DNA of 52,703 bases from positions 1-52,703 of IMG/VR virus record IMGVR_UViG_3300031857_000265; one strand, 5' to 3'. A program made the position numbers and the translations under genes. The DNA comes from a virus. Of the stretch, positions 5,128 to 23,865 are shown piece by piece. Each line of letters opens with the position of its first letter. The first letter of the stretch is position 1. The notes below the pieces were generated by a model. It worked only from the letters and a program-made list of their open reading frames with translations. It was not told the origin of the DNA and ran no database searches.

Positions 5128-5508
5128 CTACTGCTTCCTGCCGTTCGCTATCGCCATCGTGTCGCCGCAACCGCGGAGCAGCATGACGGCGTCCTCCGTG
5201 GTGTTGGACGGGTCGTCCTCCCACGCGTAGATGTCACCCGTCTCGGAGTCGACGCACTCCCACGCCAACAGAGCGGCGGGGCGTGTCGTCTGCGGGACGT
5301 CCGTGGCTATTGCCTCTGGGTCATCGCTCAACTTCTTCCACGGGACGCCGGACGCGACCATGATCGCCCCGACGACGCTGACCGTCCCCGTTGCCCTGTT
5401 CCTGACCGCCCCTCTGCAGAGACCCCTCGTCGCCACCTCCCGCGCCGCGACCATGAGGATCGCCGACGCACGGGAGGTGTTCAGTTCAGAGAACGGCACT
5501 TCGGTCAC
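5128..5508 (-). CDS. DUF6197-like protein
   Basis: The 126-aa protein starts at GTG 5508, overlapping the stop of the upstream reductase gene as GTGA, so it is probably translationally coupled. The sequence follows the pattern of the DUF6197 family common in actinophages: a helix (SAILMVAAREVATRGLCRGA), a GAI core element, LLAWECVDSETGDIYAWEDD, and a final T-x-E-D-A-V-M-L-L-R helix. Typical members have CxxGA where this has SVVGA. The family has no established function. It ends next to the bidirectional hairpin. Confidence 0.6.
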   Translation of the reverse strand: MTEVPFSELNTSRASAILMVAAREVATRGLCRGAVRNRATGTVSVVGAIMVASGVPWKKLSDDPEAIATDVPQTTRPAALLAWECVDSETGDIYAWEDDPSNTTEDAVMLLRGCGDTMAIANGRKQ

Positions 5509-7424
5509 TTGACGGGGCAGGCCCCAGTCGCGCAGTCGTCGAGGTCGATGGACATCAGCCCCGCCTCCTCGGAGAGGGCGACGGAGAAGTCGATCTTGGA
5601 GAAGAGCTTCTCGTACTGCTCCTTGCTGACCTCCTCGTACGGGGGGAGCGGGAAGTTGTGGTCGGCGTGCAGGAGGAAGGAGACGCTCTTGACGCTGTTG
5701 TCGTAGTTCTCCTTGAGCCACTCCTTGATGGCGGGTAGTTCCTCCTTGCGGTAGTAGACGGTGACGGAGACGGCGTTGTCGGCCCAGTCCGTCTGCATCC
5801 GCTTGACCCACTCGAGTTGCTCGACGGCCGTCATGTCGGCGGCGAGGACGGAACCCTCGGGCGACTGGCACGGGAACTCGACGACCCATCTGGTGTGGTC
5901 CTCGCGCCCGTCGAGCCCGACGTCGGGGACGACCTTGTAGCCGCGCTTGCGACACTTGTCCACGAGCGGATCGGCGGCGCCGAACCGCACCCTGCGGATG
6001 TAGTACTTGGCGAAGGCGGGGTGGATGCCGGGGGTGACGCCGGGCAGGAGCGAGAGTGTTCCCGACGGCTGGACCGTGGTCAGCCTCACGGACGGCGTGA
6101 TGCCGGTCTGCTCCGAGAACCACTCGTCGTACTGCCTCAGGGCGTCGTACGCCTCGGGGAGCCACGAGAGTTGCTCGGGGGTGCATTGGAGGACTCCGGT
6201 GACCGACTGCCCGAGCCTGCGGTTCTTGTGGACCATCTTGGTGGTCTTCTCGTACGGGTACTCCATGGAGGTGACCGCCTTCTGCACCTTGTACAGGAGG
6301 CGCGAGATCTCCAGCAGGTCGTCCTTGGAGTTGATGTTCGGGAGGAAGATGGTTGACAGGTTGCAGGACTCGCCGTCGGCGAGGCCGATCTCGGCGCACG
6401 GGTTGAAGCCGTCGATTGTCGGGTCGGGTCGGTTCTCGCCGAGCCTGCCGACCTTCCTGGCCAGACCCCTGTTGATGAGTCCGTACGGCTCCCCCGATCC
6501 GTCGTAGCCGCGCCACAACTCGGAGAGGATGTGGTCGTAGGAGTCGGCGTAGACGCTGTTGTTGCTGTTTGCCCTCCACGCCGGGACGGAGCCGCTGGAC
6601 CAGTTCTTGGCCCTGAGGAACAGGACGTCGTCGGGATCGCCAATGGCGATCTGGGCAGAACGGCGGGACGAGCCGGAGATGACGATCCTGCCGATGATGT
6701 TGCAGATGTCGAGGACGTCGACCGACCTGAGCTTCTTGCCCGCGCGGGCCTCCATGACCTTGCAGATGTCCGTGATCCCGTCGATGAGCGCGCCCGGGCC
6801 GGAGGCGGTGCCGCCGAAGGTCTTGAGGGGTGCGCCGAACTCCCTGACGAGGATCGTCGAGTAGGTGAACGACTTGCCGGTGTAGAAGTACGACTTCAGC
6901 ACGGAGTGGACGAGCTTGCGCCACCCCTGCCTGCTGTCGGGGACGATGATGTCGGCGTCGTTGGTGCGTTCGTGGGCGATGGACACCCCGGTCTTCACCT
7001 TGGGCATCTCGTGGATGCGGGAACGCTCCACGGAGTAGCCCACACCGCCACCGAGCATCAGGTAGTCGAACAGCAGCTCGAAGTCCTCAATCTTCTCCAT
7101 GTTGACGAAGTAGCAGTTGTTGAGGCTGGTCCCGTTGTACTTGTTGACGAGCGGTGTACCGAGTTGCCAGAGTGCGCGCCCGGAGAGCGAACACCTGAGG
7201 TTGAAGATGTGGTCGAAGAGCCTCTCGGCCTCGTCGTCGGTCAGGTTCGCACCGATCTGGATGGCCCCGTTGATACAGCGCTCAATCGTCTCGGGCCAGG
7301 TCTCCTTCCTCCCCTCGACGTCGCGCGCGTACGTGCGCAGGTAGACGATCTCGCCGAGGCCACTGAAGCCCCACGGTGCTTGACGGTTGGTGTAGGAGGA
7401 CACGAAGTCCTTGGAGAGTGCCAT
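5505..7424 (-). CDS. nrdJ: Adenosylcobalamin-dependent (class II) ribonucleoside-triphosphate reductase
   Basis: The 639-aa enzyme reduces ribonucleotides to deoxyribonucleotides for phage DNA synthesis. The finger-loop motif NPCAEIGL (N341, C343, E345) supplies the thiyl-radical cysteine. C104 (NNCYF) and C354 (ESCNLS) fit the active-site disulfide pair. The C-terminal CATGACPVK holds the shuttle pair C631/C636, with the same five-residue spacing as the Lactobacillus leichmannii enzyme, making this the monomeric RTPR type. It is about 100 aa shorter than that enzyme (739 aa), mainly from shorter peripheral segments. It needs no oxygen and no second subunit, but it does need vitamin B12 made or imported by the host. 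The A/C-rich leader before the ATG resembles that of the capsid gene. Confidence 0.93.
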   Translation of the reverse strand: MALSKDFVSSYTNRQAPWGFSGLGEIVYLRTYARDVEGRKETWPETIERCINGAIQIGANLTDDEAERLFDHIFNLRCSLSGRALWQLGTPLVNKYNGTSLNNCYFVNMEKIEDFELLFDYLMLGGGVGYSVERSRIHEMPKVKTGVSIAHERTNDADIIVPDSRQGWRKLVHSVLKSYFYTGKSFTYSTILVREFGAPLKTFGGTASGPGALIDGITDICKVMEARAGKKLRSVDVLDICNIIGRIVISGSSRRSAQIAIGDPDDVLFLRAKNWSSGSVPAWRANSNNSVYADSYDHILSELWRGYDGSGEPYGLINRGLARKVGRLGENRPDPTIDGFNPCAEIGLADGESCNLSTIFLPNINSKDDLLEISRLLYKVQKAVTSMEYPYEKTTKMVHKNRRLGQSVTGVLQCTPEQLSWLPEAYDALRQYDEWFSEQTGITPSVRLTTVQPSGTLSLLPGVTPGIHPAFAKYYIRRVRFGAADPLVDKCRKRGYKVVPDVGLDGREDHTRWVVEFPCQSPEGSVLAADMTAVEQLEWVKRMQTDWADNAVSVTVYYRKEELPAIKEWLKENYDNSVKSVSFLLHADHNFPLPPYEEVSKEQYEKLFSKIDFSVALSEEAGLMSIDLDDCATGACPVK

Positions 7425-7958: not shown

Positions 7959-9284
7959 ATGAACAGACCCAAGGTTCTTTCGCTCTTCAGCGGCGCCGGC
8001 GGACTAGATCTCGGGCTTGAGCGGGCCGGGATGGAAGTCGTCGCGCTGTGCGAGATCGACCCCAAGGCGAAGATGGTGCTGCGCAAGCACTGGCCACACA
8101 CCCACATCTATGACGACGTAAGAGAGGTAACCCGTGAACGACTCATCGCAGACGGCATCGCCCGCCCAGACATTGTGGCAGGAGGAAGTCCCTGTCAGGA
8201 CCTCTCCGTTGCCGGACGTCGTAAGGGACTTGATGGATCTCGCTCAGGGCTCTTCTGGGAGCAGTGCCGGATCTCCGACGAAATCGGGGCGGACATCCTC
8301 TGGGAGAACGTCCCCGGCGCCCTATCTAGTAACAACGGAGCCGACTTCGCTGCCGTGCTGTGGGGAATCACAGGAGCACTCGTCGAGCTGCCCCCTAAGC
8401 AGAAGTGGGCCAAGTCCGGCGTCCTGGTGGGACCAAAGCGGACAGCCATCTGGCGTGTTGCCGATGCCCAACGTTTCGGAGTTCCCCAACGACGGCGTCG
8501 TATCTACGTTGTCGGATGTTCTGGAACCGTGGCACGAGGGCTTGCGCCGCTACTGCTTGAGTGCGCGGGCGGCCAAGGGAATCATCAGGCGGGCCGAGAG
8601 GCGGGGACGAGAGCTCCCCGAACCGTTGCGGACGGCTCTGACGACTCTAGCGGCCCAGGAGCCGGACGAGGAATCACCGACGGAGGACTGACCGCCTGGG
8701 TCAAATCCAAGCGGGCATCGTCCAACACGGACGACGACACGTGGCGCGACCAGCCGGTCAGCCCGACCCTCAACGCGTTCGACAACTCCGGGGAATCGCG
8801 GGCGACCGTGCTCACCGTCCAGGAGGGGGTGCTCCCGTTCACCGAGAACAGGTTCGCCCAGTACGCCGAGGGAGTCGGGGCGTTGCGCGCCTCGGGAGGG
8901 ACGCTCGGCGGCGGGTCCGAGACATTGTTGATCGACAACGCAGGGGTTGCCGCCTGCCTGAGGAGCGGGGGCGACGGCGGTGTCCCATCCAGCAGGGGGG
9001 AGAACCTCGTCGTCCAGCAGGACCGGATCGCCGACACGATCGGCTTCTCGCACACCCAGGGTCTTGACCACCAAGCGTCGACCGAGGCCTTCCCGACGCT
9101 GAGGGCCGAGGGCGGCGGGCACGCCGTCATGTACGACACCAGGTCGACCGTCCTCTTCCAGCAGAACCAGCGGGACGAGGTCAGGATCATGCCGGGGTAC
9201 GCCGGCTCGCTCAACGCCGAGAACGGCATGCACAACACCAACTTTCTCGTGCAACCGCAAGAGGACGACGGTGCCGACATCTGA
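7959..9284 (+). CDS. C5 cytosine DNA methyltransferase, N-terminal catalytic part
   Basis: The 441-aa protein carries the SAM-binding and catalytic half of a DNA (cytosine-5) methyltransferase: motif I FSGAGGLDLG, the Pro-Cys loop GGSPCQDLSVAG with catalytic C79, ENV motif WENVPGAL, and motif VIII QRRRRIYVV. After motif VIII there is no normal target-recognition domain followed by motifs IX-X. Instead come degenerate repeats of the form TLxA...G...V(L/V)V, and the frame ends. Motifs IX-X appear three reading frames later (10271-11443). The gene therefore looks like the first piece of a four-part enzyme. Possible roles are protection against host restriction or signalling of packaged DNA. It hosts an embedded gene in another frame at 8134-8691. 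Confidence 0.85.
   Translation: MNRPKVLSLFSGAGGLDLGLERAGMEVVALCEIDPKAKMVLRKHWPHTHIYDDVREVTRERLIADGIARPDIVAGGSPCQDLSVAGRRKGLDGSRSGLFWEQCRISDEIGADILWENVPGALSSNNGADFAAVLWGITGALVELPPKQKWAKSGVLVGPKRTAIWRVADAQRFGVPQRRRRIYVVGCSGTVARGLAPLLLECAGGQGNHQAGREAGTRAPRTVADGSDDSSGPGAGRGITDGGLTAWVKSKRASSNTDDDTWRDQPVSPTLNAFDNSGESRATVLTVQEGVLPFTENRFAQYAEGVGALRASGGTLGGGSETLLIDNAGVAACLRSGGDGGVPSSRGENLVVQQDRIADTIGFSHTQGLDHQASTEAFPTLRAEGGGHAVMYDTRSTVLFQQNQRDEVRIMPGYAGSLNAENGMHNTNFLVQPQEDDGADI
8134..8691 (+). CDS. Embedded overlapping gene inside the methyltransferase catalytic domain
   Basis: The 185-aa product lies entirely within the methyltransferase gene but in the +1 frame. GTG 8134 is preceded by an AGAGAGGT Shine-Dalgarno sequence five bases upstream. 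The C-terminal part reads VVSTLSDVLE..., then LSARAAKGIIRRAERRG and ELPEPLRTAL. From memory this matches a segment seen in proteins annotated next to or within phage C5 methyltransferases (LSxKACxGILRRAxxRGKxLP), so I take it as a selected product. The Ser/Pro-rich N-terminal half could be only the shadow of the methyltransferase frame. Function is unknown. A frameshift product joining it to the methyltransferase is another possibility. Confidence 0.5.
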   Translation: MNDSSQTASPAQTLWQEEVPVRTSPLPDVVRDLMDLAQGSSGSSAGSPTKSGRTSSGRTSPAPYLVTTEPTSLPCCGESQEHSSSCPLSRSGPSPASWWDQSGQPSGVLPMPNVSEFPNDGVVSTLSDVLEPWHEGLRRYCLSARAAKGIIRRAERRGRELPEPLRTALTTLAAQEPDEESPTED

Positions 9285-9891
9285 TGGGTACAACAACTGT
9301 TTCACACCGTGGCCGGACATGGGGCAGGCGATCCGCGTCTACGCAGACGACGGGCCTTCGCCGACCCTTTCCTCGCACCACGTACTCGTCCTGCATCGTG
9401 TGATCGTGGCCAGCGAAGAGAACGACCCGTCCCTCTTCAGGAGGCAGAACTTCGGTTCCTACGTGGAGAGCGAACACACACAGGCACTCCTCGCCCGCGA
9501 CTACAAGGAGGGGACCGACCTCGTCGTCCAGCCCGTTTGGTGGGACGGAGGGGAAACCGCCCCGACCCTGACCGCAAAGGGCTCCGACCAGAGGATGCCC
9601 GACAAGGGGCAGTTGTTCGCGGTGCTGCAGGCCGTGCCGATCCAGGACGGGCGGGAGATCGAGAAGAAGCAGAACGGCTTCGGCATAGGCGAGCCGGGCG
9701 ACCCGATGTACACGCTGGACACCACCGGCGCACAGGCGGTCGGTTACGTGCTGTGCTTCGACGGCAAGCGGAACGACGACTTCAGGATGTTCGAGGACTA
9801 CTACCCGACGCTGACGCAGATGATGGGTACGGGGGGCAACAATGTCCCCATGATCATCCACGACATCCCTGGCGACGGGGTGTCCCGATGA
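9271..9891 (+). CDS. Methyltransferase middle segment 1 (target-recognition-like repeats)
   Basis: 206 aa. GTG 9271 lies 14 bases before the end of the preceding piece and in another frame. The sequence has no catalytic motif and consists of units such as SPTLSSHHVLVL, APTLTAKG...LFAV and RNDDFRMFED followed by PTL...GTGGNNVPMII. The last type is familiar from the variable region between motifs VIII and IX of prophage C5 methyltransferases. That context, and the motifs IX-X encoded downstream, argue that this is part of one split enzyme. It could act as a separate subunit or be joined by recoding. Confidence 0.6.
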   Translation: MPTSDGYNNCFTPWPDMGQAIRVYADDGPSPTLSSHHVLVLHRVIVASEENDPSLFRRQNFGSYVESEHTQALLARDYKEGTDLVVQPVWWDGGETAPTLTAKGSDQRMPDKGQLFAVLQAVPIQDGREIEKKQNGFGIGEPGDPMYTLDTTGAQAVGYVLCFDGKRNDDFRMFEDYYPTLTQMMGTGGNNVPMIIHDIPGDGVSR

Positions 9892-10274
9892 CCAAATACG
9901 AAAGGGTGCCGCCAGAGGGCGATGACGACACGGTCGCCGCCCTGACGGTCTCCGACCTGGTGAAGGGACAGGGCAACAACCAGTCCATGATGTCCGGCTA
10001 CCTCCAGGTGTACGCACTCCCGCAGGCGTTCTCGGTCAGGGAGGATGCGAAGGCGAACAACTTCCACGCCACCCCGACGGACACCGCGCTGTGCGTGAAC
10101 GCCCTCAGGCCGTCACCGCAGTCGCACCACGCACAGATCTTCATCGTTCAGGCGGAAGTGCCGTGCCAAGTCGACGGCTCGCCCATCGCCTCCACGCTCA
10201 GGGGTTTCGGGCACGGCTGGCAGGGCCAGCACAACTCAACCAACGCAGTCGTACAGGATGCGGAGGAGGGGTGA
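9888..10274 (+). CDS. Methyltransferase middle segment 2 (target-recognition-like repeats)
   Basis: 128 aa from ATG 9888, which overlaps the preceding stop as ATGA. It contains three more degenerate units (AALTVSDLVKGQGNN...LQVY, ALCVNALRPSP...IFIV, STLRGFGHG...NAVV) and no catalytic motif. It ends inside the next start (GTGA at 10271-10274). Taken alone it would be called hypothetical. The repeat similarity to both neighbours is the reason for placing it in the same enzyme. Confidence 0.55.
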   Translation: MTKYERVPPEGDDDTVAALTVSDLVKGQGNNQSMMSGYLQVYALPQAFSVREDAKANNFHATPTDTALCVNALRPSPQSHHAQIFIVQAEVPCQVDGSPIASTLRGFGHGWQGQHNSTNAVVQDAEEG

Positions 10275-11443
10275 GCGACGTTTACGGCTACGACGAGTAC
10301 AACGACTCCATCGCCGAAGAACTACACCATTCCCTGAGGGCCGGCACGAGGCAGTCCGTCGGTGTCGTACACCCACTCCCGGATGGCGTCAAGTTATTCG
10401 AGCCGATGTCGATGCGCGAGGAGAACTGGGCCGAGAGCGAGGTCAAGAACGCCCTCAGGGCCGGTGCCTCGAAGTCGTCCCACGCCGTCGTCTGCGAGGC
10501 CGTGGAGTCGGAGGAGCCGCAGGCGATCGCCTTCACCACGGAGCAGACCCCCAAGTTCTCGCCCGACCTGGCGTTCACCCTCACGGGCGGTTCGCCGTCG
10601 GGCGGTGGCCAGCCACAGTCCGTCATGCAGCGCGTCCAGATGCTCAACTTCCAGGGGAGCAAGGGGAACACCGTCGTGTCGGACGACGGGCAGTCATTCA
10701 CCCTCAACGCTATGCACGGCCACGACGTCCACGTCATCGCCTACAACATCATGGGCGCACCGCCGAGGGAGCCAGACAGGCCCAACGGCGGCTACTACGT
10801 CAACGAGACGCAGGTGACCAAGACGCTCGACGCCTTCGGCGACGGTCTCAACCCGAGCGTCAACCAGGGCGGCCTCGCCATAGTGACCAGGTCGTGGCCT
10901 GTGTCTTTCAGGGGAAGGGACGGAGGAATGACCGCAGAACAGGGCGAGGAGGGGATCGCCAACACGATCAGGGCTGGGCAGGGCGGGAGCGTCCGCCCCC
11001 ATGTCCTGATCAGCGAAGGCCCCGTGGGCACGCTCACCACGGACATGGGTACGAAGATGCAGGTCAACAACCAGTCCGTCGACAGCAATCACCTCCAGGT
11101 CTTCGCGGAAATCGTGCAAGACCCGGCAGGAACGGGTACTATCGGCACGACGGCGGGGCTGCCCGCCATAGACATGATTGACAAAGAAGGGAATGACATG
11201 ACCGCAAACTCGAACGCACTGGTAGTGAGGCGCCTGACCCCGCTGGAATGTGAGTTGCTCATGGGATGGGAGCCGGGCTGGACCGAGGTCGGCATCACCG
11301 AGAAGGGCGAACTCGTCGAGATGGCCGACACGCATCGCTACAGGATGTGCGGCAACGGTGTCGTCTCCAATGTCGCCCACTGGATCGGGGCAAGGTATGT
11401 CGCGTCCAAGCAGGCCGCGGGTGAATCGGTCGGTTCGTGGTAG
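10271..11443 (+). CDS. C5 cytosine DNA methyltransferase, C-terminal part with motifs IX-X
   Basis: 390 aa from GTG 10271. The first about 300 residues hold seven or so more repeats of the TL(x)AG...V type (SLRAGTRQS, ALRAGASKS, FTLTGGSPS, FTLNAMHGH, NTIRAGQGG, GTLTTDMGT). The end is the classical C5-methyltransferase C-terminus: RRLTPLECELLMGWEPGWT (motif IX side) and RYRMCGNGVVSNVAHWIGARY (motif X, which completes the SAM pocket). The N-terminal piece at 7959-9284 lacks exactly these motifs, so the two ends must belong to one protein fold, either by association or by joining. Confidence 0.75.
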   Translation: MSDVYGYDEYNDSIAEELHHSLRAGTRQSVGVVHPLPDGVKLFEPMSMREENWAESEVKNALRAGASKSSHAVVCEAVESEEPQAIAFTTEQTPKFSPDLAFTLTGGSPSGGGQPQSVMQRVQMLNFQGSKGNTVVSDDGQSFTLNAMHGHDVHVIAYNIMGAPPREPDRPNGGYYVNETQVTKTLDAFGDGLNPSVNQGGLAIVTRSWPVSFRGRDGGMTAEQGEEGIANTIRAGQGGSVRPHVLISEGPVGTLTTDMGTKMQVNNQSVDSNHLQVFAEIVQDPAGTGTIGTTAGLPAIDMIDKEGNDMTANSNALVVRRLTPLECELLMGWEPGWTEVGITEKGELVEMADTHRYRMCGNGVVSNVAHWIGARYVASKQAAGESVGSW

Positions 11444-14029: not shown

Positions 14030-14076
14030 CATTCGCAGGGGATGTGGGCAGGGCAGATGCTAGTAGATGGAGAACC

Positions 14077-15387
14077 ATGGCCAAGGACTGGGAGGAGGTA
14101 CTGAGGTTCCTCAAACCAAAGGAACCCCCGTACTGCCCAGAGAAATCGTCCGTCCAGCAGCAGGTGTTCCTGAGGACCAACGCCATGGAGGCCCTGTTCG
14201 GAGGGGCGGCCGGCGGAGGCAAGTCCTCGGCCCTCCTGATGGCGGCCATGCAGTACGTGGATGTCCCCGGCTACTCGGCCCTGTTGTTCCGCCGCACCCT
14301 CCAGGACCTGACTTTGCCGGGTGCGCTCATGGATCGTTTCCGCGAATGGATCGCCCCCTACGACGACGTCCGCTGGAACGCGAACACCTACACGGCGACC
14401 TTCCCGTCAGGGGCCAGGATCAGTTTCGGCTACCTGAACAACAAGGACGACTACCTCCGCTACAAGGGCGTTGAGGTCCAGTTCATCGGGATGGACGAAG
14501 TCACCGAGATCCGAGAGTCCGACTACCGTTACCTCTTCTCCCGTCTCCGTCGCCCGTCCTCGGGCCCGCTGTCGCAGGTCCCGCTCCGCATGAGGTGCGC
14601 CTCCAACCCCGCCCCGAACTGGGTGAGGCAGAGGTTTCTGGTTGAGGGTCCCACGCACGGCAGGATCTTCGTCCCGTCCAAGTTGACGGACAACCCGGGA
14701 ATCGACCCCGAGTCCTACCGAAGGGCCCTGTCCGAACTGGACCCCATTGAGAGGAAGAGGCTGGAGGAGGGCGACTGGTGGGTCACCTCGCTCGGGTCAA
14801 TGTTCCAGCGACAGGACTTCGTCATCGTTGACCCGTTCGACGTCCCCGAGTTCTCCACCAGTTCGGCGAGGGTGGTCAGGTTCTGGGACATGGCCGCCAC
14901 CGAGCCGTCGTACTCAAACCCCGACCCCGACTGGACGGTCGGGACGCTCGTGATGTTCGACAAGGGCATCGCCTGGGTCATGGACGTGAAGAGGATCCGC
15001 GCCAAGGGCGAGGCGGTCGAGAGGCTCATAGCGGAAACTGCCGCCGAGGATGGCCCGACGGTGTCGATCAGGGTCGAGCAGGAGCCGGGGTCGGCCGGCA
15101 AGAACCTCCTGGACCAGTACGCCCGGTACGTCGTGCCCGGCTACGACTTCATGGGCGTACGGGCCACGGGCGACAAGCAGACGAGGGCGAGGCCGTTCGC
15201 CGCGGCCGTCGCCAACGGCAATGTCAGGGTTCTCTCGGCGTCGTGGCTGACCGAGTGGCTTGACGAAATGTCGTCCTTCCCGGAGGCCTGCAACCACGAC
15301 GACCAGGTGGACTCCGTGGTCGGTGCTTACACTTTTCTTGCGGGGCTTGGACTTCCGCAGAGAACCCGTGCTACCATCATCGTCTGA
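14077..15387 (+). CDS. Terminase large subunit
   Basis: 436 aa; it packages DNA into the prohead. The ATPase domain has Walker A GGAAGGGKS (42-50), Walker B FIGMDEV (D140, E141) and the motif SNPAP. The RNase H-like nuclease domain has FWDMAATE (D271) and HDDQVDSVVGAY (D412). ATG 14077 is chosen over an upstream in-frame GTG (14044) because it has a GGAG site and the extra 11 residues look non-coding. An extended -10-like TGCTAGTAG (14058-14066) lies just upstream. No small terminase gene is evident nearby. Confidence 0.93.
   Translation: MAKDWEEVLRFLKPKEPPYCPEKSSVQQQVFLRTNAMEALFGGAAGGGKSSALLMAAMQYVDVPGYSALLFRRTLQDLTLPGALMDRFREWIAPYDDVRWNANTYTATFPSGARISFGYLNNKDDYLRYKGVEVQFIGMDEVTEIRESDYRYLFSRLRRPSSGPLSQVPLRMRCASNPAPNWVRQRFLVEGPTHGRIFVPSKLTDNPGIDPESYRRALSELDPIERKRLEEGDWWVTSLGSMFQRQDFVIVDPFDVPEFSTSSARVVRFWDMAATEPSYSNPDPDWTVGTLVMFDKGIAWVMDVKRIRAKGEAVERLIAETAAEDGPTVSIRVEQEPGSAGKNLLDQYARYVVPGYDFMGVRATGDKQTRARPFAAAVANGNVRVLSASWLTEWLDEMSSFPEACNHDDQVDSVVGAYTFLAGLGLPQRTRATIIV
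15369..15377 (+). promoter_or_regulatory. Extended -10 promoter element before the recombination genes
   Basis: TGCTACCAT overlaps the last codons of the terminase gene. TTGGAC about 19 nt upstream (15347-15352) may act as -35. Downstream is a GAAAGAGGAAC ribosome site and ATG 15417. Confidence 0.45.
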
Positions 15388-20101: not shown

Positions 20102-20602
20102 ATGGATGTCGTCGGCGTTGACCTGAGCCTCACCTCAACGGGGGTGGCGACGCCGTCCGGCACTTCCGCCGTCTCGGTTGCGTCGACCGGCGTGGCCAGG
20201 CTCGTCGGCATCAGAGACTCCGTCATGTCGCTCGTGTTGTCCTGCGACAATCCGCTCGTGGTGGTGGAGGGGTACTCGTTCTCCTCCAGGAACTCGCACG
20301 CCCACGCACTCGGGGAGCTGGGCGGCGTTTTCAGGGTTGCGCTCTTTGAGGCGCGGGTGCCGTACGTCGACGTTCCCCCGACATGTAGGGCGAAGTTCGC
20401 CACGGGGAAGGGGAACGCCGGCAAGAGCGAGGTAGTGTCTTCCGTGTCGGCCAGGACGGGAATCGTCTGGTCCGGCAAGGGGGCGGAGGACATGTGCGAC
20501 GCGTGGATCCTCCAGGAGATGGGGCTAGCGCTCCTCGGGCGGGCCAGACACGACTGGCCCAAGGAGAACCTCTCCGCGCTCGACAAGATTCAATACCAAT
20601 GA
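20102..20602 (+). CDS. RuvC-like Holliday junction resolvase
   Basis: 166 aa with the RNase H fold of phage RuvC-like enzymes: GVDLSLTSTGVA (first Asp), VVVEGYSF (Glu), FATGKGNAGKSEVV, and the terminal DMCDAWIL helix with the last Asp. It would cut branched DNA before packaging or after recombination. It is alone behind its own promoter at the start of the DNA-modification cluster. Confidence 0.8.
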   Translation: MDVVGVDLSLTSTGVATPSGTSAVSVASTGVARLVGIRDSVMSLVLSCDNPLVVVEGYSFSSRNSHAHALGELGGVFRVALFEARVPYVDVPPTCRAKFATGKGNAGKSEVVSSVSARTGIVWSGKGAEDMCDAWILQEMGLALLGRARHDWPKENLSALDKIQYQ

Positions 20603-20612
20603 CGACTAAAGG

Positions 20613-20969
20613 ATGAACATGAAGAACGGCAGGGGAACACCCATCAGTCAAGTCGAGGTAGAGGAGGAGATACTCCGCCTCGTCGGCGACTTGGAGTCAG
20701 AGACCGAGGCCTTCGAGACGCTGTCCCTCGACGCCGCGAAGAAGGAAGCCAGATTCAAGGGGGAGTGGGCGAAGGCATACCTGTCCGCCAGCGGCTCGAT
20801 CAAGGAGAGGGAGGCGTGGGCCGACTACCAGATCTCCGACGCCCACATGGACTGGAAGATCGCCGACGGCCTGCTCAGGGCGAAGAGGGAGAAGCTTGCT
20901 AGTATCAGGTCGTCAATCGACGCGCTCAGGACTCTGAACGCAAACGTCAGGGCGCAGGTGATGTCGTGA
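20613..20969 (+). CDS. Conserved helical phage protein of unknown function
   Basis: 118 aa from ATG 20613 (ATG 20619 possible) after AAAGG. It is almost entirely helical, with a pattern (ARFKGEWAKAYLSASGSIKEREAWAD... then LASIRSSIDALRTLNANVRAQ) that recurs in actinophages and other siphophages near recombination genes. No catalytic residues stand out. Its stop overlaps the GTG of the ParB gene, indicating coupling. Confidence 0.5.
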   Translation: MNMKNGRGTPISQVEVEEEILRLVGDLESETEAFETLSLDAAKKEARFKGEWAKAYLSASGSIKEREAWADYQISDAHMDWKIADGLLRAKREKLASIRSSIDALRTLNANVRAQVMS

Positions 20970-21742
20970 ACCACAACATCAACCCGTCCCTCGCAGATCT
21001 TGCCCTGCCTGTCGAACTCCTCGAGCCGCTGCCCGGAAACCCGCGCATCGGTAACGTCGACGCGATCGCGGCGTCCTACAGGGAGTTCGGGCAGGTCAAG
21101 CCCATCGTCGTGAAGGAACAGCCCGGTGGCACCTATGTCGTCGTCGCCGGCAATCACCAGCTGCAGGCCGTCAAGAAACTCGGTTGGTCGCACATCGCCG
21201 CCGTGCAGATGGACGGCGATGACCAGCGCGCCGCCGCGTTCGCACTCGTGGACAACAGGGTTGCGGACCTCGGGCGCACCGACCCCGCCCTCCTCCACGA
21301 CATCCTCTCCAACGTGTTCGACGAGTTCCCGGAACTGTTCGAGCAGGTCGGATGGGACGAGTACGAGGTCGCCTCCATCGGGACAGACATCGAGGAGTTG
21401 TACAGCTCCGTCAACGGCAACGGCGCGGCCGGTGCCTACATCCCGCCCGTGCTCGTCGACCCCGTTCCCCAGATGACCGTCGAGACGAGGGACGACGGGT
21501 CCAAGCAGTACGCCGCCCCCTCAACCGTTGACCAGAAGGCCACCGCGGCCCAGGGTGCGGCCGCGGCTGGTGGGACGGGGGCCAAGCAGGCTGTGTTCTC
21601 GTTCAGCCTCGTGTTTGACGACAACGCGCAGATGAGCAGGTGGTGGGACTTCGTGAAGTGGCTGAGGGCCAACCCCGCCTACGACGGCGACACCATCGCC
21701 TCCAAGGTGATGTCGTTCATTGACGCACACAGCGAGGTCTGA
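20966..21742 (+). CDS. ParB/sulfiredoxin-fold domain protein
   Basis: 258 aa from GTG 20966. The N-terminal domain (about 15-100) has the ParB signature: LLEPLPGNPRIGNVDAIAASYREFGQVKPIVV, VVAGNHQLQAVKKLGW and DNRVADLG. ParB-fold domains in phages occur as CTPases, nucleases or sulfur-chemistry partners. The Ala/Gly-rich middle is a linker, and the C-terminal part (FSFSLVFDDNAQMSRWWDFVKWL) is a small alpha/beta domain seen in phage ParB-like proteins. It opens the ParB / two mini-proteins / PP-loop ATPase / ParB cluster. Confidence 0.75.
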   Translation: MNHNINPSLADLALPVELLEPLPGNPRIGNVDAIAASYREFGQVKPIVVKEQPGGTYVVVAGNHQLQAVKKLGWSHIAAVQMDGDDQRAAAFALVDNRVADLGRTDPALLHDILSNVFDEFPELFEQVGWDEYEVASIGTDIEELYSSVNGNGAAGAYIPPVLVDPVPQMTVETRDDGSKQYAAPSTVDQKATAAQGAAAAGGTGAKQAVFSFSLVFDDNAQMSRWWDFVKWLRANPAYDGDTIASKVMSFIDAHSEV

Positions 21743-21743
21743 C

Positions 21744-21971
21744 ATGTGCGAGAGTTGCGAATACTGCGGTGGCGAGAGGCACGGCCCGACCGCCTGCCCT
21801 CTGGTGAAGAGCGTTGAGTTCTTCCCCGACGGGAGTGTCAAGAAGGTGGAGAAGTACGACCGCAACGTCATGCCTCGGTTCGGCACCACGACGTCCGTGT
21901 CGGGGTGGCCATCCAACCTGACGGTGCGGCTGCAGGACGGGTCGCCCAGCGACAAGGAAGAACCGCATTGA
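21744..21971 (+). CDS. Small Cys-rich zinc-ribbon-like protein
   Basis: 75 aa from ATG 21744. It begins with CESCEYCGGERHGPTACPLV, a probable zinc knuckle, followed by VKSVEFFPDGSVKKVEKYD, a motif common in small actinophage proteins. Its TGA overlaps the TTG of the next gene. Function unknown; its place in the cluster hints at a DNA- or protein-binding adaptor. Confidence 0.55.
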   Translation: MCESCEYCGGERHGPTACPLVKSVEFFPDGSVKKVEKYDRNVMPRFGTTTSVSGWPSNLTVRLQDGSPSDKEEPH

Positions 21972-22171
21972 CCGACTACTGGCGCAACAAACTTGTTGAC
22001 AGGTTCGGCCCGGAGGTCGTCGTCAAGTGCTGTCGCCTGCACAAGGGTCACTACAACGGTGGCAGGTGGGGTCTGTGCGGGGCGTGCGGGCGGAGGCCCG
22101 AGATCGTCCAGATGACGTGGGAGGAAGCCGACGCAGAGATTGCCGCGGCGAGGGGGGATGGCGATGTCTAG
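21968..22171 (+). CDS. Small Cys-containing protein
   Basis: 67 aa from TTG 21968, overlapping the upstream stop as TTGA. Cysteines occur as CC and as CGAC in GLCGACGRRPE, which may bind zinc. The C-terminus is acidic. Its end overlaps the PP-loop gene by 8 bases. It is too short to appear as a confident family member but is clearly part of the tightly packed operon. Confidence 0.5.
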   Translation: MTDYWRNKLVDRFGPEVVVKCCRLHKGHYNGGRWGLCGACGRRPEIVQMTWEEADAEIAAARGDGDV

Positions 22172-23309
22172 GCAGAGGATGTTCCTTGACATGTCGTGTG
22201 TTGACGCCGCGCGCGAGCGCATCAGGCACGTGTACGACACCTTTGACACCGTGTGCGTCCAGTTCTCCGGCGGAAAGGACTCGACCGCCGTCCTGTACCT
22301 CGCCAAGGAAGTCCACGAGGAGCGCGGCCTCGGCCCGGTGAAGGTCATCTTCCGCGACGAGGAGATGGTCAGCCCTCTCGTCGTCGACTTCGTGGAGAGG
22401 GTTCGCAACTACGACTGGGTGGACATGGAGTGGTACTGCCTGCCGGTCGGGCAGGAGTGCTGGGTGCTGGGCAAGCGCGAGTACGTCCTGCTGTGGTCGG
22501 AGAAACGCAGGCTCGAGGGCAGACTCATCAGGCCCATGCCGCCGTGGGCGATCCACGCCGGGCACTTCGGGGCGACGGCGACGAAGCCGTTGCCCGAACC
22601 GATCGACTACTACACGATGCAGGGGAAGAGGGGGCGCACAGCCTTCATCACGGGGGTCCGCGCCAACGAGTCAATGGTCAGGTTCCGCTCGGTGGTGAAC
22701 AAGCTCAACGAGAACTACATCACCCGCCCCTACAAGCTCCAGAAATCCATACCTCTCATGCTGGCGAAACCCATCTACGACTGGGTGGCTGCCGATGTCC
22801 TCAAGTTCCTGCAGGAGGAGCACGGTGCTGAGTGGTGCGAGTACTACGACGTCGCCGCGATGGTCGGGGGCGTGCAGAGGGTGGGCATCCCCCTCCACTC
22901 CGTCGCCATACGCCGGCTGAGGGACTACACCGCCGCCGAGCCGTGGTGGTTCGACAGGCTGTACGACTGCTTCCCGCAGGTCGACGCGCAGTACAGGCTG
23001 TGGCCGGAGTTCGACGTCGACGCCTACATCAACGACTACGCGTCGGAGGGGTGGGACGGCGTGAAGAGGTGCATCGAGGAGAACATGCTCACCCCCGGCA
23101 TCAGGAGGACGGCGATGGCGGCCGTGGCCGACTTCAGGAAGAAGCACATCAACGACCCCGTCTCCTACCCGATCTCGTGGCTCATCAGGACGCTCGTGAT
23201 GAACGAGTTCCACACGACGTCGGCGAGGCCCGTCGGCCCGAAGACCAAGGACTGGAAGAGAAAGATGGCGGCGGAGCAGGAGTACGCCGCGGAACACGAG
23301 GGTGAATGA
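22164..23309 (+). CDS. PP-loop ATPase of the PAPS-reductase/DndC-like family
   Basis: About 381 aa from ATG 22164 (ATG 22158 possible). The PP-loop FSGGKDSTAVLYLA near residue 32 binds ATP and identifies the adenylating N-type ATP pyrophosphatase fold. Further family features are FRDEEMVSP, ITGVRANES and PIYDWVAADV. The ECGLH catalytic cysteine motif of true PAPS reductases is absent and there is no C-terminal Cys, so sulfate reduction is unlikely. Sulfur transfer to a nucleic acid, as by DndC, or another adenylation is more plausible. It is flanked on both sides by ParB-domain genes. Confidence 0.75.
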   Translation: MSRQRMFLDMSCVDAARERIRHVYDTFDTVCVQFSGGKDSTAVLYLAKEVHEERGLGPVKVIFRDEEMVSPLVVDFVERVRNYDWVDMEWYCLPVGQECWVLGKREYVLLWSEKRRLEGRLIRPMPPWAIHAGHFGATATKPLPEPIDYYTMQGKRGRTAFITGVRANESMVRFRSVVNKLNENYITRPYKLQKSIPLMLAKPIYDWVAADVLKFLQEEHGAEWCEYYDVAAMVGGVQRVGIPLHSVAIRRLRDYTAAEPWWFDRLYDCFPQVDAQYRLWPEFDVDAYINDYASEGWDGVKRCIEENMLTPGIRRTAMAAVADFRKKHINDPVSYPISWLIRTLVMNEFHTTSARPVGPKTKDWKRKMAAEQEYAAEHEGE

Positions 23310-23310
23310 C

Positions 23311-23865
23311 ATGAACATTGAGACCGTGAACATCAACTCGCTGAGGCCAGCCCGCTGGGCGACCACCCACCTGCTGCGCCCCGACGAGAGACTCCTGATC
23401 CAGTCGATGTCCGACTGGGGGTGGTTGCAACCGCTGGTCGTCCGGGCCGAGGACAGGACGATCATTGACGGGAACCTCAGGTGGGTCATCGCAAAGGAGG
23501 AGAGGCCGGTCTCGGCCAAGGTCGGCGAGGACGTCCCCGTCGTCTGGGTCTCCTGCGACGAGGTGGACGCGATGGTCCTCCATGTCCGGCTGAACAGGGC
23601 GAGGGGCATGCAGGTGGCCACCAAGCTCTCCTCGCTCCTGAAGTGGGTCGCCGCGTCCGGCAAGTACGACGCACGGGCGATCAAGAACATGCTGGTGATG
23701 ACGGGCGAGGAGTACGAGGTCCTGGCCGACGGGCAGTACCTCAAGCGCAAGTCCATCAAGGAGCACTCCTACTCAAGGGGCTGGGTCCCCGTCGAGGCCC
23801 CGAAGCCCGGGGTGGCCATCGCCGGCGAGATGCGCTTCGAGAGGCCGGCTAACAGGGACAACTGA
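23311..23865 (+). CDS. Second ParB-like domain protein
   Basis: 184 aa from ATG 23311, one base after the upstream stop (GTG 23302 possible). ParB-like features: NINSLRPARWAT, LIQSMSDWGWLQPLVV, TIIDGNLRWVIA and VRLNRARGMQVA. It is shorter than the ParB gene at 20966 and has a different C-terminus, so the two are divergent members rather than a recent duplication. It is probably a functional partner of the preceding PP-loop ATPase. Confidence 0.7.
   Translation: MNIETVNINSLRPARWATTHLLRPDERLLIQSMSDWGWLQPLVVRAEDRTIIDGNLRWVIAKEERPVSAKVGEDVPVVWVSCDEVDAMVLHVRLNRARGMQVATKLSSLLKWVAASGKYDARAIKNMLVMTGEEYEVLADGQYLKRKSIKEHSYSRGWVPVEAPKPGVAIAGEMRFERPANRDN

Follow-up and report, generated by a model that had tools for sequence, protein, structure and literature searches.

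A run of ParB and PP-loop ATPase genes in a virus contig as a candidate phage DNA-modification cassette

Five plus-strand genes are packed into positions 20966-23865 of the virus record IMGVR_UViG_3300031857_000265, a 52.7-kb contig that was analysed over its whole length of 52,703 nucleotides (the window). According to the open reading frame calls, they encode a ParB-type protein (ParB1), two cysteine-rich mini-proteins (mini1 and mini2), a PP-loop ATPase and a second ParB-type protein (ParB2). This confirms, as one packed run, a cluster described in an earlier note on this DNA. The question raised by the locus is what such a combination of genes does in a phage. At a rough probability of 60 %, it would be a phage DNA-modification cassette of unspecified chemistry. 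Within it, the PP-loop protein and ParB2 would most likely form the modification enzyme pair, because the genes at the ParB1 slot are exchanged between phages and a C-terminal motif of ParB1 is specific to the PP-loop versions.

Linkage, slot exchange and ParB1

A scan of viral contigs returned at least 597 relatives of the PP-loop protein. Since the first set of relatives was selected by the PP-loop gene itself, the survey was repeated with the head-tail adaptor as marker. The adaptor was held by 80 loci, 40 of which have at least 5 kb upstream, and 32 of these are distinct by adaptor DNA. PP-loop and ParB2 were present in 30 of the 32 distinct loci and ParB1 as well in 27, and the loci L167 and L168 contained none of the cassette. 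The gene-neighbourhood survey, which the earlier note had proposed as a check, thereby finds conserved linkage, so the run is no chance association.

Of the viral PP-loop loci with sufficient room, 67 of 72 have ParB2 next to the PP-loop gene; for bacterial IbrA-type loci with enough downstream sequence, the corresponding figure, with an IbrB-type gene beside IbrA, is 75 of 76. The two genes are an almost obligate pair. ParB1 lies upstream in 48 of 67 viral loci. Loci with short flanks were dropped: the 76 viral PP-loop loci thus supply denominators of 72 (ParB2) and 67 (ParB1), and the 78 bacterial IbrA-type loci denominators of 76 and 73. The three genes are also kept where they are scattered: in the phage record G016, PP-loop is found near 92 kb, ParB1 at 72.6 kb and ParB2 at 22.3 kb, and in the related and hence not independent G017 they are near 86, 66 and 18 kb. 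The PP-loop gene of G030 has ParB1, with one in-frame stop, as its neighbour and ParB2 about 42 kb off. No ParB was within reach in 26 of 80 PP-loop loci. A separate family of the PP-loop gene alone was rejected, as two such long records carry ParB1 and ParB2 elsewhere. Nine records were searched for distant ParBs, and the counts from the six shorter ones (ParB2 in 0/6, ParB1 in 1/6) are uninformative. In alignment A4, the mean identity is lowered by one row (L121) with a long, probably non-coding N-terminal stretch. A separate observation concerns the relatives L008 and L011, which have an insert of about 750 bp between PP-loop and ParB2 (L011:7146-7900) with one plus-strand frame of at least 70 residues.

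The exchange is most easily followed in the Bclasvirinae mycobacteriophages, where gene 1 is ParB1 and is followed by a short variable stretch and then by terminase and RuvC. This stretch holds TGT, QueC, QueD, QueE and FolE in Laurie and CRB2, TGT in Adawi, and a Tet_JBP oxygenase (just under the Pfam cut-off, 30.4 vs 34.9 bits), a TET-associated glycosyltransferase (TAGT), PIG-L and a P-loop kinase in Serendipitous; EastView has a similar gene set in this slot by annotation. In Phlyer it consists of two small genes, PP-loop and ParB2, and the latter two also follow ParB1 in Kovu and prophi79-1. Elsewhere, the ParB1 core is followed by dPreQ0-type genes in Finch and, without QueC, in Bipper, by Mom in Warren and TaeYoung, by a ParB-methyltransferase in Evaa, and by Tet_JBP (below cut-off) and a kinase in Kharcho. 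By our own extension of this pattern, the PP-loop pair would occupy the place of a DNA-modification enzyme set. The genes gp2-gp5 of Serendipitous (L094:813-3654) are mostly annotated as hypothetical, with the gp2 family labelled queuine tRNA-ribosyltransferase in PHROGs, and to judge by their gene content they are likely a hypermodification cassette.

For Rosebush, a phage of the same genus as Laurie, dPreQ0 was measured at about 28 % of Gs, and neither 'ParB' nor 'PAPS' occurs in the accessible part of that paper's text (PMC6884629). The ParB of CRB2 (ORF1) was suggested by its authors as a DpdB homologue (PMC6392294, available sections), and a ParB protein whose role is unknown is a frequent member of carboxymethylcytosine gene neighbourhoods (PMC12783734, available sections). 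No Dpd-named match for the window was found in NCBIfam or PADLOC, in which the existence of a DpdB model was not checked. The Rosebush-type dPreQ0 cassette (ParB1, TGT/DpdA, QueC-D-E, FolE) is like the PP-loop cassette in its ParB1 core and its place before terminase and RuvC, but it contains other enzymes and the C-terminal part of its ParB1 is unrelated by profile.

ParB1 itself matches PF02195 (E 3e-10) and phrog_723 in the profile search. Its N-terminal core (VLAGNHTLxA and surroundings) is common to the ParB1s of all cassette types, and an alignment of the window protein with seven non-PP-loop and five PP-loop phage ParB1s identifies this core as the kind accompanying known modification genes. 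The pocket motif of ParB is GERR. In ParB1, GNHQ replaces this Arg-bearing motif in 17 of 19 rows of alignment A2, with one GNHR and one GNHS, and the second Arg of the pocket motif of the chromosome-partition ParB CTPase is not kept, the Arg position being mostly Gln or Thr. A model of the C-terminal motif FDD..Q..W..F..WL, built from the window lineage alone, matched 6 of 6 PP-loop phage ParB1s that took no part in it (E 5e-18 to 1.3e-3, Rhizobium being the weakest at E 0.0013). It matched none of 19 other proteins (best E 0.35), mostly the ParB-type proteins of 15 non-PP-loop neighbourhoods, together with Kovu gp1 and TaeYoung gp69 (annotated hypothetical). The Mom-associated ParB1s carry a CPxC-type, zinc-ribbon-like tail at the C-terminal end (L356:3447-3980, L354:3432-3962).

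The cassette arrangement is not unique to the window phage, as Arthrobacter, Bacillus and Mycobacterium phages are annotated alike. The order ParB, PP-loop, ParB is found in Arthrobacter phage Kovu (genes 5-7), Bacillus phage 022DV001 (78-83), prophi79-1 (92-97) and Phlyer (1-5). Mycobacteriophage Phlyer (Bclasvirinae/Pipefishvirus) has the same five-slot order as the window, namely ParB, gp2, gp3, 'IBrA' and 'IBrB', the last two labels already being given to genes 4 and 5 in the GenBank notes. Its ParB1, PP-loop and ParB2 are homologous to those of the window, and its ParB1 bears the window-type C-terminal motif. It differs in its two small proteins, in a terminase directly after the cassette and in a PP-loop protein that is about 33 % identical. 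IbrA and IbrB are also present in Rhizobium phage L338C. Gene 88 of this phage (L085:4245-4940, 231 residues), a neighbour of these two genes, is annotated as a DNA methyltransferase; its best matches over its length are ParB families, and it is probably a ParB1.

The PP-loop protein, ParB2 and the mini-proteins

The PP-loop protein matches PF01507 (35 bits vs a cut-off of 22.5) and phrog_2302 (E 2e-71). SGGKDS, Asp65, Glu67, GxRxxES..R and DW..D, which include its ATP-binding residues, are invariant in 50 of 50 aligned rows, IbrA relatives included. The subfamily is marked by residue 225, which is Cys in 29 and Ser in 2 of 31 PP-loop-type rows and Asn in 18 of 19 IbrA-type rows. CysH-type reductases carry a catalytic Cys motif, ECGLH. 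As this C-terminal motif is absent, a sulfate-assimilation enzyme, that is a phosphoadenosine phosphosulfate (PAPS) or adenosine phosphosulfate (APS) reductase of the CysH type, was ruled out; the same view in the earlier note holds across 50 aligned relatives, whose last 80 residues contain neither ECG nor CxxC. No Cys pair or iron-sulfur (Fe-S) motif is conserved in these 50 rows.

The best structure match of the predicted model (mean predicted local distance difference test score, pLDDT, 88.3) is the PAPS domain of human FAD synthase (8rom, Z 16.4, 2.4 A, 168 residues), followed by APS/PAPS reductases near Z 14, with matches within 1 Z treated as tied. Since FAD synthase transfers AMP with no sulfur involved, the fold gives no support to sulfur chemistry. 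DndC, SspD and BrxP are not among the structure matches listed, which cover residues 7-265, and their absence excludes nothing.

ParB2 is a weak match to PF02195 (E 0.002, below the curated cut-off) and a strong one to phrog_2159 (E 1e-28), so that ParB1 and ParB2 belong to different ParB families, in line with the earlier note's description of two different ParB-fold genes flanking the ATPase. The pocket Arg is kept in ParB2 (DGNLR in the window, DGxxR in 143 of 145 relatives), and the protein belongs with IbrB (VDGFHR..RHNRARG). Its predicted model (mean pLDDT 85.4) matches CDP-bound ParB (6sdk, Z 12.3, 2.0 A, 93 residues) and also KorB (8qa9, Z 12.5, 5.4 A, 159 residues). A ParB2 match was found in 95 of 50,697 phage records, a figure with which its retention in G016, G017 and G030 can be compared.

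IbrA/IbrB, the eib activators of E. coli, and ybdN/ybdM likewise combine a PP-loop protein of the PAPS-reductase fold with an IbrB-type ParB. ParB2 overlaps the PP-loop gene and keeps DGxxR, as expected of an adjacent IbrB-type ParB. The window differs from IbrA in having Cys225 in place of the Asn of the YNxxYD motif and in the ParB1 that accompanies the pair. DUF3440 (PF11922), the IbrA domain, gave no match for the PP-loop protein at E 1 and none in the window. In 15 of 80 genome loci, the gene immediately upstream of bacterial IbrA is helicase-like with a GTGK motif (e.g. L301:4754-5998, L313:4796-6016), and Flavobacterium, Fusobacterium and Streptococcus phages have such a gene close to IbrA as well.

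The zinc knuckle of mini1 is perfect and retained in three aligned relatives, and in mini2 the CC, H and CxxC elements are retained in aligned relatives. According to phmmer, 7 of 80 loci contain mini1 and 8 contain mini2, these being the closest relatives only, and Phlyer gp2 and gp3 have no similarity to either. For these two reasons, the mini-proteins were rejected as conserved cassette parts and counted as local.

Gene layout and surrounding genes

The genes of the run and other features of the window are collected in Table 1. The earlier note had seen every gene packed with TTGA/GTGA overlaps. This is borne out for four junctions, which overlap by 4 or 8 nt (GTGA at 20966 with the gene of the 118-residue protein, TTGA at 21968, ATGTCTAG at 22164 and GTGAATGA at 23302), but not for ParB1 and mini1, which are separated by a 1-nt gap. 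Downstream of the cassette are the head-tail adaptor, the tail sheath and other structural genes. The window C5 methyltransferase is split, and a split of like kind, about 2 kb wide, occurs in the relatives G001-G003.

Table 1. Coordinates and features of the gene run and of other genes in the window
Feature	Position	Strand	Details
ParB1, 258 aa, GTG start	20966..21742	+	ParB N-domain, GNHQ pocket, C-terminal FDD..Q..W..F..WL
mini1, 75 aa, ATG start	21744..21971	+	CX2CX4HX4C zinc knuckle; closest relatives only
mini2, 67 aa, TTG start	21968..22171	+	CC..H..CxxC, zinc-ribbon-like; closest relatives only
PP-loop ATPase, 381 aa, ATG start	22164..23309	+	phrog_2302; SGGKDS, DEE, GVRANES..R, DW..D, C225; helical C-terminal part
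ParB2, 187 aa, GTG start	23302..23865	+	phrog_2159, IbrB-like; ParB N-domain with DGxxR and KorB-like helical part
118-aa protein, conserved neighbour of the cassette	20613..20969	+	phrog_1389; overlaps ParB1 by GTGA
RuvC-like Holliday junction resolvase, habitual upstream neighbour	20102..20602	+	phrog_159 E 1.4e-29; RuvC in 26/32 distinct relatives
Terminase	14044..15387		about 6 kb from the cassette
C5 methyltransferase, split	7959..11443		N-terminal motifs 7959-9284, C-terminal part 10091-11443, extra frame between
Ribonucleotide reductase	5505..7424	-	phrog_367 E 8e-141

Possible functions of the cassette

Phage DNA modification, as suggested in the earlier note, is indirectly supported by the slot exchange, the nearby tailoring enzymes and the co-retention of the three genes. 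From the gene content, motifs, conservation, co-retention and exchange observed for the cassette, we infer DNA as the substrate and every chemical step proposed here. ParB1 would be an accessory partner found alongside a wide variety of phage DNA-modification enzymes and probably matched to the particular enzyme by its C-terminal part. Most likely, the PP-loop protein uses ATP for the adenylation of a target that is located on DNA or meant for it. ParB2, with its nucleotide-pocket ParB domain and helix-turn-helix-like part, probably brings the DNA and/or gates the reaction. The two predicted zinc-binding mini-proteins would be a local add-on. Anti-restriction is a plausible use of the putative modification.

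Near PP-loop or IbrA genes (314 loci), a phrog_11826 S-adenosylmethionine methyltransferase was counted 9 times, GNAT 18 times, a histone-deacetylase-fold protein 8 times and a TauD-type oxygenase twice; these counts are raw, with several loci being near-duplicates and no background rate. Two of the GNAT-type seeds (L271, L287) have no Pfam match of their own. In L281, an ectoine-synthase-like gene sits between PP-loop and ParB2, and the annotation of the ParB gene of phage Gaia reads ectoine synthase/ParB protein. By their predicted activities, the nearby tailoring enzymes would suit an amine- or amino-acid-bearing adduct, and sulfur is no more likely than C-N chemistry for the transferred group. 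In TilS and GMP synthetase, substrates are modified through an adenylate, which offers an analogy for amine transfer. In its most specific and distinctly doubtful form, the proposal is that PP-loop and ParB2 are a new DNA hypermodification machine that uses an adenylate to couple a base or phosphate with an amine or amino acid and not with sulfur, with the GNAT, deacetylase-fold, TauD and ectoine-synthase-like gene products trimming the adduct and ParB1 serving as a general adaptor whose C-terminal part chooses the enzyme.

The earlier note had pointed to links of ParB-fold proteins and DndC-like ATPases with DNA sulfur chemistry in other systems and had suggested that the set may act with the C5 methyltransferase; neither idea was supported. 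PF00145 was found in only 8 of 29 relatives, and this methyltransferase was rejected as a cassette partner. Phosphorothioation or base thiolation of DNA, in which the PP-loop protein would transfer sulfur from host IscS in the manner of DndC/SspD, could draw on the PF01507 fold, on the PP-loop fold that DndC, SspD and BrxP have in common with the window protein, and on Cys225 in place of the IbrA Asn. Phage PAPS-reductase-like proteins have been described as resembling DndC (PMC8092301, available sections), and sulfur donors can be supplied by the host (PMC12839542, available sections). The matches of the DndC and BrxP profiles do not extend beyond the PP-loop region, however, and the score of 26.2 bits against a TIGR03183 cut-off of 290.4 rules out DndC membership. 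The Cys motifs of sulfur transferases were not found, and Cys225 is replaced by Ser in some relatives, as given above. Cysteine desulfurase (PF00266) was found in 0 of 29 related records, with controls matching in 14 of 14; this search did not include the window, and a host enzyme could substitute. Together with the FAD synthase fold, these results make sulfur transfer quite improbable.

Several observations weigh against DNA modification. ParB1 is upstream in only 1 of 73 bacterial IbrA-type loci, and it is missing near the pair in three distinct window-type relatives (L127/L130, L140, L149). No recognised modification enzyme was found in 4 of 15 non-PP-loop ParB1 neighbourhoods (Sisko, SM1, GMA6, Hanem); the 15 were chosen by hand, for coverage of genera, among the 60 records (of 308) on a spread list and are no random sample. 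The terminase-side slot could also be a place where unrelated genes tend to gather, although the stretches shown for Finch, Warren and TaeYoung contain no annotated terminase. The strain E. coli K-12 has the ybdN/ybdM pair and is not known to have hypermodified DNA, but ybdNM is repressed by CitR and over-expressed upon citR deletion. The activation of prophage genes by E. coli IbrA/IbrB was reportedly the subject of a 2002 study by Sandt. Such activation, also described in the accessible part of PMC4541368, is the sole role with experimental backing among the IbrA/IbrB relatives.

The pair could accordingly act like IbrA/IbrB as a transcription co-activator that turns on late phage genes, ParB2 binding DNA and the PP-loop protein sensing a nucleotide or metabolite. 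The grouping of ParB2 with IbrB, its KorB-like helical part and the position of the cassette before the head-tail genes would fit this role. Nevertheless, it is considered unlikely, as the invariant PP-loop active site (50/50) is more than a mere co-activator needs and DNA-modification enzymes fill the slot in sister phages. Very improbable is a packaging accessory, in which ParB1, ParB2 and the ATPase would help the terminase find or free DNA ends. The cassette is adjacent or close to the terminase in Phlyer, Kovu and prophi79-1 and is near RuvC, but the window terminase is distant (Table 1), no terminase is annotated in the 2-5 kb flanks shown of Rhizobium L338C, Bacillus 022DV001 and Streptococcus CHPC877, and many bacterial genomes also carry IbrA/IbrB pairs.

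The gene set belongs to a family that is annotated but has not been characterised, and its functional placement would be new. No proposal of the PP-loop/IbrB pair as a DNA-modification cassette was found in the open literature as far as accessible, subscription papers being outside the scope of the search. If the cassette does modify DNA, hundreds of phage records in which genes bear the names 'PAPS reductase' and 'ParB' would signal a DNA modification not yet characterised and not sulfate metabolism or plasmid partition, and ParB1 would become a searchable flag for modification cassettes of unknown type.

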